From Streptomyces sp. NBC_00250 (GTDB lineage: Bacteria; Actinomycetota; Actinomycetes; Streptomycetales; Streptomycetaceae): a stretch of DNA of 64,000 nucleotides. The stretch lies in the NCBI RefSeq assembly GCF_036192275.1, contig NZ_CP108088.1:7481001-7545000 (forward strand). Direction: 5' to 3'. The notes beneath the pieces were generated by a model. That model was not told where the DNA came from, searched no databases, and saw nothing but the letters and a program-made list of their open reading frames with translations. This document shows positions 34,379 through 42,489 of this stretch, piece after piece (positions within the stretch are counted from its first letter, which is position 1; each line of letters begins with the position of its first letter). The position numbers were made by a program, and so were the translations under genes.

Positions 34379-34435
34379 CCTCCCCGATCTGCGCCGTTTC
34401 GACCGTTGTCAGTTCGAGGACCTAATCTGTCCACC

Positions 34436-35980
34436 GTGACTTCGCCTGCCTCGACGGACCTCGCTCCGCCCCAGCTCAGCGCGGGGCCGCGGCCCGCGCA
34501 GGGTCCGGCCGCCGACGAAGGGCTCGCGCGGCGCCTCCGCGCGCTCGCGTGCACGGCCCCGCTGCACGACCTGGACGCCCGCAAGGCGAACCTGGCCGGT
34601 GAGTACACGGTCTACGCGATGGCCGAGGTGGCCCTCTCCGCGATCGACCTCATCACGCTGAACATGGACTTCGACACCGGCGCCGACCACGAGCAGATCG
34701 TCGCCCGGCTGCTGCCCCGCGTCGCCGCCCAGGCGCCCACCCGCCCCGCCGCCGAGCACGAGCGCGTGGCCCGCTGGGTCCTGGAGAACCTGATCAACGT
34801 CGGCAGCGTCGACCGGGGCTTCCGCGCCGTCTACGGCACCTTCGGAACCGACGGCGTGTACGTCCGCAGGGACTACGACTTCAAGCTCATCGAGGAGGTC
34901 CCGGGGTACGGCGGCGGCGTCTACCTCCGGACCACCGACGAAGCGGTCAACGTCCTGGTCGGAGCCCTCGACACCGACGTCACCAGCGCCCAGATCGCCG
35001 CCGAGGTGAAGCTGGAGGTCCTCATCAACCGCGGCCGGCTCGCCGACGCCCAGCTCGCCGCCGAGCAGGCGCGCTACCGGACCGTGCAGTACGCCGAGAC
35101 CCTCCGCAAGACCCTGGAGGCCACCCGGCGCAACGTGCGCGCGGTGGACTGGCTCAACACGGTGCCGGACATGATCGCTGAGGCGCTCGACCACGTCGCC
35201 GACCGCTACCGCCACGAGAACGCGATCCTCACCAACATCCGCAGGGCGCGCGACGAGGCCGAGGCCGCGTCCGACGCCAAGACGGCCGAGCACAAGCGCC
35301 GCGCCGCCGAGCTCGTCGACATAGTGAAGGACTGCATCCGGCGCCACACCCAGCTCCAGTCCCGTCTCCTGGACGCCGGGCCGCTCTTCCGCGCCGAGCA
35401 GGACCGGCAGGCCTTCGCCGCCCCCACCTCGTACACCGGGCTCGACCTGTACGGGCAGCTCGTGGCGCCGACCCTGCCGCTCCCCGTCGAGCAGGCCGCC
35501 AGGGTCACCGACGCGTTCTTCGCGCGCGGCACCGGTCTGCGCACCCCGGCCTCCGTACGCCTCGGCGACCTTGTCGACCTCCTCCTGACCCCGCCCGTCG
35601 AGCGCGAGCACCTCGGCGCGGAGATGCCCGAGCCCGACCTCATCGCCACCCCCGACGACTCCCGGTTCAGCGAGGAGCAGCTCGCGAACGCCATGCGTCT
35701 GCTCGACCTGGAGCACGACGCCCCGCGGCGGCTCTCCGGCCTGCTCGCCGAGGCCCGCGAGCTCGACTCCGACCTGCCCTACCTCGTCGCCCTGCTCGCC
35801 GTCCACGCGGCGAGCCCCCCGGTCGGCACGGCCTACCGCCAGGGCGAGGAGCGGCTCCTCTTCGCCGTCGACGACGGCACCCCGCTGGACGACCCCGAGT
35901 TCGGCGGCGCCGACCTCATCGTCGGTACGGCGCTGCTCGACGCGGCGGGCATGGCCGCCGGCCGCACGGAGGGCTCGTGA
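34436..35980 (+). CDS. Kleisin-like subunit of SMC operon (hypothesis)
   Basis: A 514-residue soluble, mostly helical protein and the first gene of a four-gene operon. The N-domain (residues about 25-170) contains EYTVYAMAEVALSAIDLITL, then ARWVLENLINVGSVDRGFRAVYG and a winged-helix-like YVRRDYDFKLIEEVPGYGGGVYLRTTDEAVNVLVG. A central coiled region (about 180-310) has AAEQARYRTVQYAETLRKTLEATRRN. The C-domain is helical and acidic. Winged-helix ends around coiled helices are the pattern of MksF/JetA-type kleisins, but identity is too distant to assert. The start at GTG 34436 is 7 nt after TAATCT, suggesting a leaderless mRNA. It overlaps the next gene by 4 bp. Confidence 0.75.
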   Translation: MTSPASTDLAPPQLSAGPRPAQGPAADEGLARRLRALACTAPLHDLDARKANLAGEYTVYAMAEVALSAIDLITLNMDFDTGADHEQIVARLLPRVAAQAPTRPAAEHERVARWVLENLINVGSVDRGFRAVYGTFGTDGVYVRRDYDFKLIEEVPGYGGGVYLRTTDEAVNVLVGALDTDVTSAQIAAEVKLEVLINRGRLADAQLAAEQARYRTVQYAETLRKTLEATRRNVRAVDWLNTVPDMIAEALDHVADRYRHENAILTNIRRARDEAEAASDAKTAEHKRRAAELVDIVKDCIRRHTQLQSRLLDAGPLFRAEQDRQAFAAPTSYTGLDLYGQLVAPTLPLPVEQAARVTDAFFARGTGLRTPASVRLGDLVDLLLTPPVEREHLGAEMPEPDLIATPDDSRFSEEQLANAMRLLDLEHDAPRRLSGLLAEARELDSDLPYLVALLAVHAASPPVGTAYRQGEERLLFAVDDGTPLDDPEFGGADLIVGTALLDAAGMAAGRTEGS

Positions 35981-36660
35981 CCCTCGTCCCTCCGGTTCCG
36001 ACGCCGCTCGCGGCCGACGCCGCCGTACCGCCCGCCCGCCCCGCCCACCCGTCCGAGGCCGCGCAGGACCCGTCGGACCCGGCGGGCATCGGCGTACGCG
36101 AAGACGGCGCGCGCGACTCGTCGGCACCGTCTGAACACGTGGAGCGGCAACAGGAGCCGCGCTCCACGTCACAGCCCGGCTCCCCGCCGCAGCCCGCGCC
36201 CGCATCGGAGCCCGAGACCGCGCCGGAGCCCGCCACCCACCGCCCCGTCCCCAGCCCCGGCCCCCGCGTGCGTGCCGTCCGCGTCGACCCGCCCGCCGGC
36301 GCGTCGACGCGCGGTGACGCCGAGGACCGGCCCGCACAGGCGTCCGGCCCCCGGCCCAAGCCGCGGCTCGGCGTCGTGGCCGTGCCCGAGCCGACCCGTA
36401 CGGCGTCCGCCCGGCGGCGGCGCGACGTCCCGTCCGTCCGCGCCGTGCGGCTCACGGACGAACCGGTCACGCGCGCGGACCGACCGGCGGACCGCACCGC
36501 GGACGGGCCCGCCGCGCGTCCCGCCGCCCCGCCGACCGACCGCCCCGCCACCTCCCGGGCGGCCGTCACCCCGGTCCCGCTGCCGCTGCCCCCACCCCGA
36601 CCCGTCACCCCCGCCGTACCGACATCGACCGAGAGCCGTACCGAGGAGCCCCAGCCGTGA
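35977..36660 (+). CDS. Disordered Pro/Arg-rich protein in SMC operon
   Basis: A 227-residue protein with almost no predicted globular content; it is rich in Pro, Ala, Arg, Thr and Ser. Three short islands look alike: PRVRAVRVDPPAG, KPRLGVVAVPEP and RDVPSVRAVRLTDEP. They could be short linear motifs that bind the SMC or kleisin-like partners. Both ends overlap neighbouring genes by 4 bp (GTGA), so expression is stoichiometrically coupled. This is the best reason to believe it is translated. It has no counterpart in the known three- or four-subunit Mks/Wadjet operons that I can recognise. Confidence 0.7.
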   Translation: MTLVPPVPTPLAADAAVPPARPAHPSEAAQDPSDPAGIGVREDGARDSSAPSEHVERQQEPRSTSQPGSPPQPAPASEPETAPEPATHRPVPSPGPRVRAVRVDPPAGASTRGDAEDRPAQASGPRPKPRLGVVAVPEPTRTASARRRRDVPSVRAVRLTDEPVTRADRPADRTADGPAARPAAPPTDRPATSRAAVTPVPLPLPPPRPVTPAVPTSTESRTEEPQP

Positions 36661-37598
36661 GCGAAACCCACGCCGAGTACGCCGACGCGTGGGGCGAGCA
36701 GGAGCCCCCGCAGCCCCAGGCCGCCACCACGAGCGCCGCCGCCACGGCCGGCGCCGCCGCGTCCGCCGTCACCCCCGCCGACGCCTCCGACGCGGCCCGG
36801 CTCGTCGCCTTCGGGCTGCAGCCCAAGCTGCTCCCGGCCCGCGACGCCGAGTACGCGGAGCTGCTCCGCCGCTACCGCGAGGACCCCGCCTTCGCGCGCC
36901 TCGCCGACGCCGTCGCGACCGGTCTCGGCCTCGTCGTCCTGGAGGTCTCCCCGCGCGCGGGGATGGCCGTCACCGCCGGTGAGGACTCCGTCTTCGCCGT
37001 CCGGATGGGCGACTACGCGCGCCGCGCCTCCACGGACTCGGCCGACCGGTTCCTGCACGGCCTGGCGCATCTCGCCGTCGCCGCCATGGCCTTCCCCCGC
37101 CCCGAGGACCTCGCGGACGACGCGTACATCGGCCGCCTCACCGTCAACGGCGTCGACGCCTTCGTACGCCAGGCGTGTCTGCGTCTGGAGCAGCGCGCCG
37201 AGGAACTGGGCGAGAACACCGACCCGGCGTCCGACGCTCCCGGCCTGGAGGCCGCCTGGCGGATCTACGCCCGCCGCAGCGCCACCGGCGCCACCAAGGA
37301 CGCCCGCCGCCTCGCCGGATCCACCACCGGCATCGTCGGCAAGGCGGCAGCGTTCCTCACCGAATCCGGCTTCCTCCAGCGCACCGGCGACGAGGGCGGC
37401 GGCTCCTACCGCACCACCGCCCGCTACCAGCTCCAGGTCCGCGACATGGCCGGTTCGGCCGCCATGGCCGAGCTGCTCGAACTCGGTGTCGTCCCCGTCA
37501 GCGACGGCTCCGCGACCCTCCTTCCGCCGCCCGACGGCGACGACCTGGAGCTCGCGGCCGACGCGGGCCTGCCCTTCCACGCCTCACCGCACGCGTAA
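36657..37598 (+). CDS. KITE/MksE-like subunit of SMC operon (hypothesis)
   Basis: A 313-residue protein. A low-complexity N-terminal 50 residues precedes a domain with AEYAELLRRYREDPAFARLADAVATGLGLVVLEVSPRAG, which reads as helix-helix-strand. Later come FLHGLAHLAVAAMAFPRPEDLAD and VGKAAAFLTESGFLQRTGDEGGGSYRTTARYQLQVRDMA, a winged-helix-like hairpin. Two winged helices with an aromatic/charged linker are what MksE/JetB/ScpB-type KITE proteins show. Assignment rests on fold pattern and position before the SMC gene, not on a recognisable signature. It is coupled upstream (GTGA) and 52 bp from the SMC gene. Confidence 0.75.
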   Translation: MSETHAEYADAWGEQEPPQPQAATTSAAATAGAAASAVTPADASDAARLVAFGLQPKLLPARDAEYAELLRRYREDPAFARLADAVATGLGLVVLEVSPRAGMAVTAGEDSVFAVRMGDYARRASTDSADRFLHGLAHLAVAAMAFPRPEDLADDAYIGRLTVNGVDAFVRQACLRLEQRAEELGENTDPASDAPGLEAAWRIYARRSATGATKDARRLAGSTTGIVGKAAAFLTESGFLQRTGDEGGGSYRTTARYQLQVRDMAGSAAMAELLELGVVPVSDGSATLLPPPDGDDLELAADAGLPFHASPHA

Positions 37599-37650
37599 CC
37601 GCCCCGCGTAACCGATCTTCCCGAGCACGAGAGCACGAGAGTCCCTCGCC

Positions 37651-40600
37651 ATGTACGAGCTGTCCCGGGTCCGCCTGTACTCCATCGGTCCCGCCGGTGC
37701 GCGCTACGCCGACACCGTCCTGGACCTGCGCGGGGTCGGCGCGCCCGTGCCCCACCCCGCCCCCACCCAGGCGGAGTTCTTCGAGGAGGAGCCGGTCGGC
37801 CCGCCGCGCCGTCCCGCCCCCGCGGGCGTGCTCTTCCTGGAGAACGGCGGCGGCAAGTCCGTCCTCCTGAAGCTGATCTTCTCGGTCATGCTCCCCGGCC
37901 ACCGCAACACCCTGGGCGGCGCCAGCTCCGGAGTGCTGCGCAAGTTCCTCCTCGCCGACGACTGCGGGCACGTCGCCCTGGAGTGGCAGCACACCCTCAC
38001 CGGCGAACTCGTCGTCGTCGGCAAGGCCAGCGAGTGGCGCGGCCGGCAGGTCTCCTCCGACCCGCGGAGGTTCGCCGAGGCCTGGTACTCGTTCCGTCCC
38101 GGCCCCGGCCTCAGCCTGGACAACCTCCCCGTCGCCGAGGCGACCTCCGTCCGCCCGCCCGTCGAGGGTGCCTCCGGCGCGACCGGCCGCCGCCGCACCA
38201 TGAAGGGCTTCCGTGACGCGATCACGGAGGCGGGCAAGGCGTACCCGCACCTGGAGGTCTACTGGGAGGAGATCCACGACCGCTGGAACGAGCACCTCGG
38301 GGAGCTCGGCCTCGACCCCGAACTCTTCCGCTACCAGCGCGAGATGAACGCCGACGAAGGCGAGGCGGCCGGCCTCTTCGCGGTCAAGAAGGACTCCGAC
38401 TTCACCGACCTGCTGCTGCGGGCCGTCACCGACACCCGCGACACCGACGGCCTCGCCGACCTCGTCGGCGGCTTCGGCAACAAGCTCGGCCGCCGCGCCG
38501 AACTGACCGCCGAGCGCGAGTTCACCGCCGGATCGGTGGACCTGCTCAACCGGATCGTCGAGGCCGCCGGGACCCGGTCGCACGCGCGCGAGATCCACAC
38601 GGCGGCCGAGCGCCGCACCCGCACCCTGGCCCGCCGGCTCTCCGCCCGCGCCGCCGTGGAGCGCGCGCGTGGCGCCGAACTCGCCCAGCAGGTCACCTCC
38701 GCGGGACACGCCGTCGCCGAGGCCGAGACGGCACGCGGGCGCGCCGCCCTCATCGCCGCCGAACTCGCCTACCGGCACGCCTCCCTTGCGCTGACCGCCG
38801 CGGAGAAGGGCGCCGCGTCCCAGCGTCGCGAACTCACCGACGCCCGCACCGTGCACTCCGCCTGGCAGGCGGCCGAGGTCGTCCTCCGTCAACGCGCCGC
38901 CGGCGACCGCTCCGCGCGCGTGGCCGCCGCCATCCGCGAGGCCGAGCGGGACGCGGCCCCGGCCCTCGCGGCCCGCGCCGAGGCCGCCGCCGACCTCGTA
39001 CGCGCCCTCTCCGCCGCCGCCGAGGAGGGCGAGCGCCACGCGGCCGAGGAGGAGGAACGCTCCACCGCCCTCCAGGACATGGGCGAGACCGCCCACCGTG
39101 ACGCCACGGCCGCCGCGACGGAGGCCCAGCGGGCCCGCAGCGAGGCCGGTCACCTGCGCCAGCGCCTCGCCGAGGTCGAGCAGGAGACCGCCGAAGCCGT
39201 ACGCGCCGGCTGGCTCGACGACACCGCGCCCGACGCCGACCCCGCCCGTGCCGCGCTCGCCGCGAGCGACGCCGAGAAGACGACGGTCGCCGCCTGGGAC
39301 ACCGCCCGCGAGGCCGCCCGTACGGCGGCGGACCGCGCGCGTGAGGCGGCCGGGGCCGAGTCCCGTGCCGAACTCGCCGCCGCCCGCGCCGCGGACGCGG
39401 CCGAGGCCGCCGGGAACGCCTACGACGCCGAGCGCCGGGCCGCCGAGCTCCTCGCCGGCGAGGAGCGCCTCGCCGAACTCCTGAGCCTCCCGACCACCGG
39501 CCCGTCCCTCCCGGCCACCGGCTCTCCGCTGCCCGGTCAGCGCGCCGCCCACCCCGACGCCGACCCCGGGGAAACCTCCGGGGCGGACGCCGACAGCGCG
39601 CCCCAGGGCCCGCTCACCGTCACCGAGTTCGACCGGTACGCCGACGAACTGCGCGGCATGCTCGACCAGGCCGTCACCTCCGCCGAGCGCCAGCTCTTCG
39701 ACCTGCGCACCGCCGCGGCCGACGACTCCCGCATCCTCGGCGCCCTCGGCGACGGCGGCCTGCTGCCGCCGGGACCCGACGTCCTCGCCACCGTCGAGTA
39801 CCTCGGCGAGCACGGCATCCCCGCCCTCCCCGGCTGGCGCTACCTCGCCCAGGCCGTGGACCCCGCCGACCACGCGCGCGTACTCGCCGCCCGCCCCGAG
39901 CTGGTCGACGGCGTCGTGATCACCGACCCCGTCTCGTACGGACGCGCCCGCGAGGTCCTCGGCACCGCCGCCCTGCTGCCCCGCTCCGCCGTGGCCGTCG
40001 GTACGGCCGCCGCCCTGCTCGCCCCCGTACCCGGGCAGGACACGGCGGACGACAGCAGCGTCCACAGCGTCTTCCTCGTCCCGCCGAACCCGGCCATGCA
40101 CGACGAGCACGCGGCCGACGAGGAGCGCCACGCGCTGCGCGCCCGCGCCACCGCCCGCGACGAGGAGATCCGTACCCTCGCCGCCCGCCTCGCCGGCGAC
40201 CGCTCCCTCGCGGCCCGGATCGGCTCCTGGCGCGCCGACTGCCCGCCCGGGATGCTCGCCGAGCTCGCGGCCGTCGCCACGACCGCCCGCGAGACCGCGG
40301 AAGCCGCCACCGCGACCCTCGACGAGGCACGCACCGCGCGCGTGGAGGCCGACGAGGCCGCCGCCGAAGCCGCCCAGGTACGCGACGAGCGCCAGGAGGC
40401 CGCCCAGCGCGCCCGCCGGGTCGCCGACGCCCTCGCGGGCCTCGCGTTCCGGCTGCGCGAGCGGTCCGCCTGGCAGGCCAAGCTCCGCGAACTCGCCGAC
40501 GACGCCACCGAGGCCGAGGCCCGCGCCCAGACCTGTCTGGAACGCGCCCGTGCCGCCGACGAGGACCGCCGCGCGGCCCAGCGCTCCGCCGACGACGCCC

Positions 40601-42351
40601 ACCGCACCGCCCGCGCCCTGCGGGCCGAGCGCGCTGAGATCGCCGGCGCCCCCGACACCCTCCCCGAGGTGAACGAGACCGCGCCCCGCGCCGCGCTCCC
40701 CACCCTGCGCGAGGCCTACCGGGCCGCTTCCCAGCTGTACGAGAAGGTCGGCGTCGGCGCCGACCTGCGCGCCGAGCAGGCCCGCGCCGAGAGCGACGAG
40801 TCCGCCGCCCTCGCCGAGCTGGACCGTCTCACCAACAAGGTCCGCACCCGCGCCGAGCAGCTCCTGGAGTCCACCGACGGCGCCGACGGCCCGTCCCGGC
40901 AGGCGGCGGCGGCCCGCGCCGAGTCCCTCGTGCAGATGCTGGAGACCCGCGCGTCGGAGGCCAGCGAGAAGCTCGGCCGACTGCGTGGCGAGGCCGAGCG
41001 CCTCGCCCCCGAGGACGGCGAGGCGCACACCGAGCTGCCCGAGGAGGTCGTGCCCGCCGACGCCGAGCGGGCCCAGGTCCTGCTCCGTACGGCCACCGCC
41101 GAACTGGCCTCCCGCAGCGCCGCCCTGGAGGCGGCCCGCGCCGCCCACACCGGCCTGCTCCGCGACCACCGGACCGCCGAGGACGCGGCGGGCGGCTTCG
41201 ACGAGACCGCGGCCCTGCTGCGGGACCTGCTCCGCGATCACACGGACGAGGAGCGGGAGGAGTCCGAGCCGTACCCCGGCAGCCTGGATGAGGCCCGTAC
41301 GACGGCCACCGAGGCACGCCGCTCGCTGCGCGGCTGCACGGCCGAGCTGTCCTCGGCCGACGCCTCCGTCCGCGAGGCGAGCGACATCCTCGTACGGCAC
41401 GCCAACTCCACCCGCTACGAGCAGGTCCGCACCCCGGCACGCCAGCAGATCCGCGAACTGCCCGCGTCCGCGCTGCCCGAGCACGCCGCCAAGTGGGCCG
41501 AGGCCTTCGCGCCCCGGCTGCGGGTCCTCACCGACGAACTGGAGCAGCTGGAGCGCAACCGCGACTCGATCGTGGACCGGCTGCGCGGCCTCGTGGAGTC
41601 CTCGCTGGCCACCCTCCGCTCCGCGCAGCGGCTCTCCCGGCTCCCCGAGGGCCTCGGCGAGTGGTCGGGGCAGGAGTTCCTGCGGATCCGCTTCGAGGAG
41701 CCCGATCAGGCCACCCTCGCGGAGCGGCTCGGCGAGGTCGTCGACGAGGCGACCCGCGCCGCGGTCAAGAAGAACTCCGACCTGCGCCGCGACGGCATGT
41801 CCCTGCTGCTCCGGGGAGTCCAGGCGGCGCTCGAACCCAAGGGCGTCTCCGTCGAGATCCTCAAGCCGGACGCGGTGCTCCGCGCCGAGCGGGTGCCCGT
41901 CGGGCAGATGGGCGACGTCTTCTCCGGCGGACAGCTGCTCACCGCGGCCATCGCCCTGTACTGCACGATGGCGGCGCTCCGCTCCAACGACCGGGGCCGC
42001 GACAAGCACCGCCACGCGGGCACGTTGTTCCTGGACAACCCGATCGGCCGCGCCAACGCCACGTACCTCCTGGAGCTCCAGCGGGCCGTGTCGGACGCGC
42101 TGGGCGTCCAGCTCCTGTACACGACGGGCCTGTTCGACACGACCGCGCTCGCCGAGTTCCCGCTGGTGATCCGGCTCCGCAACGACGCCGACCTGCGGGC
42201 CGGCCTCAAGTACATCAGCGTGGAGGAGCACCTGCGCCCGGGTCTGCCGCAGACCGGCGGGGAGGGTGAGGCGATCCACGGCGAGATCACGGCGACGAGG
42301 ATGTACCGCCGCCATGCCTCCGACGACCCCACCCGGGTGGCGTCTCTCTAG
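37651..42351 (+). CDS. SMC-like ATPase, 1566 residues
   Basis: A large SMC/MukB-architecture ATPase. The N-terminal head has the P-loop LENGGGKSVL (Lys69). Two very long Ala/Glu/Arg coiled-coil arms (about 300-690 and 800-1330) flank a globular hinge-like domain at about 691-797 (GGLLPPGPDVLATVEYLGEHG, then LVDGVVITDPVSYGRARE). The C-terminal head has the ABC signature FSGGQ (1424-1428) and Walker B LFLDNP (Asp1462), with a D-loop-like IGRAN. A complete head implies an active ATPase that dimerises. Unlike RecN or SbcC there is no CxxC hook. It ends the operon, with a perfect 17-bp hairpin 9 bp later. It is longer than typical MksB/JetC (about 900-1200). Function could be plasmid/phage restriction or chromosome handling. 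Confidence 0.9.
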   Translation: MYELSRVRLYSIGPAGARYADTVLDLRGVGAPVPHPAPTQAEFFEEEPVGPPRRPAPAGVLFLENGGGKSVLLKLIFSVMLPGHRNTLGGASSGVLRKFLLADDCGHVALEWQHTLTGELVVVGKASEWRGRQVSSDPRRFAEAWYSFRPGPGLSLDNLPVAEATSVRPPVEGASGATGRRRTMKGFRDAITEAGKAYPHLEVYWEEIHDRWNEHLGELGLDPELFRYQREMNADEGEAAGLFAVKKDSDFTDLLLRAVTDTRDTDGLADLVGGFGNKLGRRAELTAEREFTAGSVDLLNRIVEAAGTRSHAREIHTAAERRTRTLARRLSARAAVERARGAELAQQVTSAGHAVAEAETARGRAALIAAELAYRHASLALTAAEKGAASQRRELTDARTVHSAWQAAEVVLRQRAAGDRSARVAAAIREAERDAAPALAARAEAAADLVRALSAAAEEGERHAAEEEERSTALQDMGETAHRDATAAATEAQRARSEAGHLRQRLAEVEQETAEAVRAGWLDDTAPDADPARAALAASDAEKTTVAAWDTAREAARTAADRAREAAGAESRAELAAARAADAAEAAGNAYDAERRAAELLAGEERLAELLSLPTTGPSLPATGSPLPGQRAAHPDADPGETSGADADSAPQGPLTVTEFDRYADELRGMLDQAVTSAERQLFDLRTAAADDSRILGALGDGGLLPPGPDVLATVEYLGEHGIPALPGWRYLAQAVDPADHARVLAARPELVDGVVITDPVSYGRAREVLGTAALLPRSAVAVGTAAALLAPVPGQDTADDSSVHSVFLVPPNPAMHDEHAADEERHALRARATARDEEIRTLAARLAGDRSLAARIGSWRADCPPGMLAELAAVATTARETAEAATATLDEARTARVEADEAAAEAAQVRDERQEAAQRARRVADALAGLAFRLRERSAWQAKLRELADDATEAEARAQTCLERARAADEDRRAAQRSADDAHRTARALRAERAEIAGAPDTLPEVNETAPRAALPTLREAYRAASQLYEKVGVGADLRAEQARAESDESAALAELDRLTNKVRTRAEQLLESTDGADGPSRQAAAARAESLVQMLETRASEASEKLGRLRGEAERLAPEDGEAHTELPEEVVPADAERAQVLLRTATAELASRSAALEAARAAHTGLLRDHRTAEDAAGGFDETAALLRDLLRDHTDEEREESEPYPGSLDEARTTATEARRSLRGCTAELSSADASVREASDILVRHANSTRYEQVRTPARQQIRELPASALPEHAAKWAEAFAPRLRVLTDELEQLERNRDSIVDRLRGLVESSLATLRSAQRLSRLPEGLGEWSGQEFLRIRFEEPDQATLAERLGEVVDEATRAAVKKNSDLRRDGMSLLLRGVQAALEPKGVSVEILKPDAVLRAERVPVGQMGDVFSGGQLLTAAIALYCTMAALRSNDRGRDKHRHAGTLFLDNPIGRANATYLLELQRAVSDALGVQLLYTTGLFDTTALAEFPLVIRLRNDADLRAGLKYISVEEHLRPGLPQTGGEGEAIHGEITATRMYRRHASDDPTRVASL

Positions 42352-42360
42352 CGCAACGGT

Positions 42361-42398
42361 GAGCGGCCCGGCCCCCTCGACAGGGGGCCGGGCCGCTC
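42361..42398 (+). terminator. Perfect 17-bp hairpin after SMC operon
   Basis: Arms 42361-42377 and 42382-42398 are exact complements with a 4-nt loop (cgac), 9 bp after the SMC stop. A strong, clear operon end. Confidence 0.9.
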
Positions 42399-42489
42399 AT
42401 CGGTTCTCCCGGGACCTGTACGACGTGAATCGCCGGACGGTCCCAGGGCGCCTGTCCGGCGGATCAGGGTCGGACAGGCCCCAGTCGCC

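Follow-up and report, generated by a model that had tools for sequence, protein, structure and literature searches.

A Wadjet type III JetABC operon lacking the nuclease JetD, conserved in Streptomyces, suggests a defence machine turned housekeeping

Introduction

Wadjet type III systems (JetABCD) are plasmid-restriction machines in which a kleisin-type protein (JetA), a KITE-type subunit (JetB), a structural maintenance of chromosomes (SMC) ATPase (JetC) and a nuclease (JetD) are encoded in one operon. In actinobacteria, the Wadjet-type complexes MksBEFG and EptABCD of Corynebacterium and Mycobacterium have the nuclease MksG and act against plasmids (PMC10123090 and PMC10586767). MksBEF of Pseudomonas serves the organisation or segregation of its own chromosome, and a review speculates that MukBEF and MksBEF descended from a defence machine, MksBEF by loss of the nuclease (PMC10586767).

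Here we describe an operon on the forward strand of a 64,000-nucleotide stretch (hereafter, the window) of Streptomyces sp. NBC_00250 (contig NZ_CP108088.1, positions 7,481,001 to 7,545,000). With Wadjet type III it shares JetA3 and JetC3 as defined by PADLOC, a predicted JetB encoded between them and the gene order. It differs in lacking JetD both in the operon and in the rest of the genome, in being core rather than accessory, in carrying a bridging open reading frame (ORF) and in a longer jetA-jetB junction. We consider it likely (probability about 60%) that the operon encodes a Wadjet type III JetABC whose nuclease was lost and which persists in Streptomycetaceae as a core complex passed on vertically, beside the ordinary SMC.

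Results

The operon encodes Wadjet type III JetA and JetC with a predicted JetB between them

The first protein matched the PADLOC family JetA3 (PDLC00567, E 1.4e-183) and the last one JetC3 (PDLC00588, E 0, 1404 bits). The initial annotation had proposed an undescribed, fourth class of SMC complex and had itself named the assignment of the SMC gene to a characterised family as the outcome that speaks against it; because the JetC3/JetA3 assignment is that outcome, the proposal is not upheld. PADLOC returned no JetB match for the third protein, and it also failed on JetB in three of the four JetD-bearing loci tested, the fourth having only a weak match (E 0.01-0.02). A homologue of this protein was present in all 39 relatives taken for comparison, JetD3-bearing loci included, and its predicted model (m0201e7aefbbd) was similar to MukE/JetB. 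By homology and predicted fold the third protein is probably JetB, a KITE subunit, as its sequence pattern had led the initial annotation to suspect. The second outcome that the annotation had named against its proposal, partners predicted to lack winged-helix or kleisin folds, did not arise for JetB. For JetA, the kleisin assignment draws on the PADLOC family and on a structural resemblance of the model to MukF, which covers the helical middle part and does not extend to the ends that the initial annotation had taken for winged-helix-like. The predicted kleisin, KITE and SMC set without a nuclease corresponds to an MksBEF-like nuclease-free complex. The features are as follows (positions in the window).

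34436..35980, forward strand: jetA, 514 aa, GTG start at 34436 (TTG at 34406 possible), Wadjet type III JetA3 family, kleisin-type
35977..36660, forward strand: bridging ORF between jetA and jetB, 227 codons, Pro/Ala/Arg-rich
36657..37598, forward strand: jetB, predicted KITE-type (winged-helix) subunit, its N-terminal tail modelled at low confidence
37651..42351, forward strand: jetC, SMC ATPase, 1566 aa, Wadjet type III JetC3 family
37834..37860, forward strand: Walker A (P-loop) region of JetC, motif ENGGGKS, from the JetC alignment
41923..41934, forward strand: ABC signature SGGQ of JetC, within FSGGQ, from the JetC alignment
42025..42039, forward strand: Walker B strand LFLDN of JetC, reading LFLDNPIG, from the JetC alignment
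42358..42401, forward strand: terminator-like hairpin with a perfect 20-bp stem and a 4-nt loop, from folding

Other searches gave no family for the four proteins in Pfam or NCBIfam, the four weak Pfam matches (E 0.17-3) lying below the cut-offs. A PDB sequence search with the single JetC query had no match, and PDB profile searches with JetB, JetA and JetC retrieved weak matches to unrelated, designed or coiled-coil chains. Among these, the JetC profile matched fragments of bacterial Smc (E 0.006) and Smc4 (E 0.3), both within the coiled coil, and the match of the C-terminal part of JetA to designed TIM barrels (6e-5) was judged to be chance. The resemblance to MukBEF is therefore one of models, JetB to MukE and the middle of JetA to MukF, whereas the PDB sequence searches had no match to MukBEF. 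A canonical SMC is also encoded in the same genome (C1:2808659-2812243, 903 bits), the sole TIGR02168 match above the cut-off; jetC was not among the eight matches listed.

JetD is absent from the operon, its flanks and the genome

The operon-level hallmark of Wadjet type III, a JetD gene, is missing at this locus. No ORF of ≥100 aa in the window matched, at E≤0.01, a JetD3 hidden Markov model (HMM) built from 12 accessory TOPRIM proteins (those 12 being recovered by construction). In the genome as a whole there were no Pfam JetD_C matches (among the control genomes, only C. glutamicum matched) and no matches at E≤10 to a JetD3 profile that did match 19 of the 199 Streptomyces genomes. The initial annotation had reported no JetD-like gene nearby, and this holds for the whole genome by both searches.

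The same was found at related loci, where ORFs of ≥100 aa gave no JetD3 HMM match in the core Streptomyces loci inspected (L001-L080, L176-L178 and L180; 78 of the 80 loci L001-L080 extend >1 kb beyond jetC, the exceptions being L007 and L076), in the loci of families f16 and f41 labelled as JetD-lacking, or in the 2.4-3.0 kb 3' of jetC at 14 loci from other Streptomycetaceae genera. Pfam JetD_C was detected in 24 of the 199 Streptomyces genomes, the JetD3 profile (10 candidates scored per genome) in 19 and either one in 31; JetD_C was also found in 14 of 111 genomes in a Streptomycetaceae sample and 44 of 393 in a sample of the class.

JetABC is a core gene set under purifying selection

JetA was detected in 196 of 199 Streptomyces genomes, with one match apiece in 178 of the 196. 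The weakest matches were those of G118 (7.9e-67) and G078 (7.4e-166), and the three genomes without a match are assemblies of 1140, 1040 and 120 contigs. JetB was matched in 243 of 248 Streptomycetaceae genomes, 240 of the matches being close (E <1e-110) and spread over 15 of 17 genera. The remaining three were distant (5.5e-17, 7.4e-52 and 2.1e-41), two of them from the sole genomes of genera g131 and g133, and the five genomes without a match are assemblies of 290-820 contigs. In the class sample, JetA occurred in 63 of 393 genomes (44 of this genus, 18 of family f16 and one of f41). Only five plasmid records had a JetA match, every one at <60% identity, and phage records had none.

The window operon lies 3' of a carboxyltransferase-domain gene, a LamB/YcsF gene and a GntR regulator, and is followed by a small opposite-strand ORF and a histidine kinase that carries a nitrate-sensing domain (NIT kinase). 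Among the 80 loci L001-L080, both 10-kb flanks of which are complete in 69, the LamB/YcsF gene was kept in 59, the GntR gene in 66, the small downstream ORF in 73 and the NIT kinase in 63. Conservation of the operon across Streptomyces, which the initial annotation had proposed to check, is supported. The ratios of nonsynonymous to synonymous substitution (dN/dS, Nei-Gojobori) against eight relatives were 0.04-0.22 for jetA, 0.07-0.25 for jetB and 0.13-0.30 for jetC, and all three genes are under purifying selection.

The four forward-strand ORFs had been described correctly from the sequence alone: ORF coordinates confirmed the 4-bp overlaps joining jetA, the bridging ORF and jetB (a 52-nt gap separates jetB from jetC), and folding confirmed the perfect hairpin at the end (-59.1 kcal/mol for the 81-nt region, shuffle mean -35.5, z -6.2). 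The P-loop, signature and Walker B strand reported for JetC are likewise all present, and these motifs are intact in 11 aligned core JetC proteins. SMC ATPases have a catalytic Glu after the Walker B Asp. The Walker B motif is "complete" with a qualification, as JetC carries Asn at the position of this Glu (LDNP, Asp-Asn instead of Asp-Glu). D1462 and N1463 are invariant in 20 of 20 aligned JetC proteins, JetD-bearing or not, and the Asp-Asn pair is therefore a trait of the JetC family.

Accessory copies carry JetD, and the trees favour its loss

Some Streptomyces and some f16 genomes encode a divergent, accessory JetABC with a TOPRIM protein directly 3' of jetC. All four such proteins tested were JetD3 by PADLOC (E 7e-79 to 4e-123), and the JetD3 HMM additionally matched L154 and L155 and, among later loci, L193-L199, L201 and L202. 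Some Streptomyces hold the core copy plus an accessory JetABCD copy; where a strong JetD3 match and a placed core jetA could be compared (12 genomes), the two were on separate contigs or ≥300 kb apart. In the complete accessory loci JetD is accompanied by its own JetABC; L199 has a strong JetD3 match close to a contig edge with no JetABC in view.

Two genomes had JetD3 matches near both chromosome ends (G087:C1:15690 and 9222614; G148:C1:66618 and 8038764), and terminal inverted repeats may therefore hold some of the complete Wadjet III copies. According to an actinobacterial defence survey, Wadjet is enriched near Streptomyces chromosome ends (PMC10482375), which would fit the accessory JetD-bearing copies.

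A JetD acting in trans was also sought. The weak JetD_C matches in G400, G330, G481 and G417:C11 (L189-L192) were rejected, there being no JetA, JetB or JetC in those stretches; the JetD3 HMM misses three of these four proteins. L200, with weak JetD_C similarity, likewise has no JetABC in its stretch. The proteins of L189-L192 and L200, all from f16 genomes, possibly belong to other TOPRIM nuclease systems.

A JetA tree of 56 rows (30 JetD-lacking, 18 JetD-bearing and eight cut by contig ends) needed three changes in JetD presence over the 48 labelled rows. A JetA+B+C tree of 32 rows (quick search, with the Shimodaira-Hasegawa-like approximate likelihood ratio test, SH-aLRT, as the only support) also needed three, and its starred branches force three. 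The core Streptomyces clade was well supported in the JetA tree (100/99); its junction with the JetD-bearing relatives was weak (49/11), and several rows sit on very long branches. With JetD-bearing rows to either side, it appears simpler that JetD was lost from the core of Streptomyces, from f16 and from f41 (L161) than that it was gained, a reading that hinges on where the root is placed.

The Pro-rich ORF is a variable bridge between jetA and jetB

Bridges were counted in the core loci L001-L080, L090-L118, L176-L178 and L180, of which 107 were used (7 of 114 were left out for missing genes or Ns). An ORF spans from the jetA stop to an overlap with the jetB start in 99 of the 107, with a length of 9-257 codons (<100 codons in 86 of the 99). 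The spacing of jetA and jetB preserves a single frame in 100 of the 107 loci, where one third would be expected if unconstrained, though the rows are related. A Shine-Dalgarno-like purine stretch lies 5' of jetB in 99 of 99, a count made without a chance control. The bridge sequence is not conserved beyond its end, the commonest listed endings being (K/E)E-x-x-P, and its dN/dS was 0.50-0.69 in four comparisons, against 0.04-0.30 for jetA, jetB and jetC in eight. In other Streptomycetaceae genera, the jetB frame reaches back to the jetA stop in 10 of 14 loci and a bridge occurs in four; in 12 of 15 accessory loci the jetA and jetB genes share exactly 4 bp.

Because of the kept frame and the overlaps, we infer translational coupling of jetA and jetB, which in Streptomyces usually runs via the bridging ORF; this ORF is probably translated. 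The initial annotation had taken the Pro-rich ORF for a disordered fourth subunit. The open frame with its start and stop overlaps and the frame kept across core loci would suit such a subunit, but the variable length, the lack of a common sequence beyond the end, the absence from most loci of other genera and the high dN/dS make it highly improbable. By comparison of these sequences, the ORF of the window is an expanded coupling bridge and not a conserved subunit. It resembles a translational-coupling spacer able to expand into a protein-sized ORF.

The junction, taken as the distance between the jetA stop and an anchor in the conserved part of JetB, was ≤5 nt in 19 JetD-bearing rows. Its median was 166 nt in the 107 core rows (two within the JetD-bearing range), which represent a single lineage, and 56 in the 18 f16/f41 rows (five within that range); some values, down to -568, are spurious and come from overlong ORFs. 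The rows taken as JetD-bearing include L153 and L156: L153 stops at a contig edge, its JetD being inferred from L202 in the same genome, and the 3' end of L156 is off the contig (it is one of the cut rows of the JetA tree). In most JetD-lacking core copies the junction and the JetB N-terminus are long and of low complexity, whereas those of JetD-bearing copies are short. Type I JetD touches a motif at the JetB N-terminus, among other places (PMC10586767), and the long junction and N-terminus could fit a lost JetD docking site. This idea is held as a hypothesis because of the overlong-ORF artefacts, the single-lineage core rows and the short junctions of L157 and L161, which have no JetD.

Discussion

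A nuclease-free JetABC could still be a defence system, recognising small circular DNA and silencing it without cutting, or recruiting an unrelated nuclease in trans. Its homology to a plasmid-restriction machine in PADLOC points that way, as does the report that JetABC is the part conferring circular-DNA sensing (PMC10586767). We regard such a residual role as unlikely: near-universal presence, kept surroundings and slow evolution contrast with the patchy accessory JetABCD, the genome of the window has no JetD, and JetA is scarce among plasmid records and absent from phage records. The core complex might instead borrow JetD from an accessory type III locus, as both copies occur together in some Streptomyces. 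This is very improbable, since 168 of the 199 genomes have no JetD-type match by either search (the JetD3 profile search scoring 10 candidates per genome) and 165 of these still have JetA, and accessory JetD comes with its own JetABC in complete loci. The missing JetD might also mark a decaying remnant left after effector loss, a reading already contradicted by the intact ATPase motifs, the low dN/dS of the three genes and the close JetB matches in 240 of 248 genomes.

A core JetABC that lost JetD remains the favoured explanation. By analogy with type I JetABC and MukBEF, the complex would load on DNA and extrude or bridge loops by ATP turnover; without JetD it would not cut DNA. A chromosomal role is plausible: in hyphae or spores, the complex would organise or segregate the linear chromosome, present there in many copies, much as MksBEF does for the chromosome of Pseudomonas. 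MksBEF of Pseudomonas aeruginosa is probably nearer to Wadjet type I than to type III. In a broader and tentative scenario, loss of JetD domesticated Wadjet type III in Streptomycetaceae and, independently, in at least one further family of actinobacteria (f16), which yielded an extra core SMC complex for handling chromosomes that are linear and multi-copy. With JetD docking no longer a constraint, the jetA-jetB junction and the JetB N-terminus might then have grown disordered sequence, including a new bridging ORF.

Searches of the available literature found no study of this complex in Streptomyces, and the passages covered of PMC10586767, PMC10123090, PMC13121528 and PMC10482375 describe no JetD-less core complex there; those of the survey PMC10482375 do not mention the core copy. 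The operon would provide a sequence case, in another Wadjet type, of the step from defence to housekeeping, and some of the genomes concerned also hold JetD-bearing relatives that serve as a natural control. It suggests a defence machine turned housekeeping in Streptomycetaceae, a family with well-studied chromosome biology.

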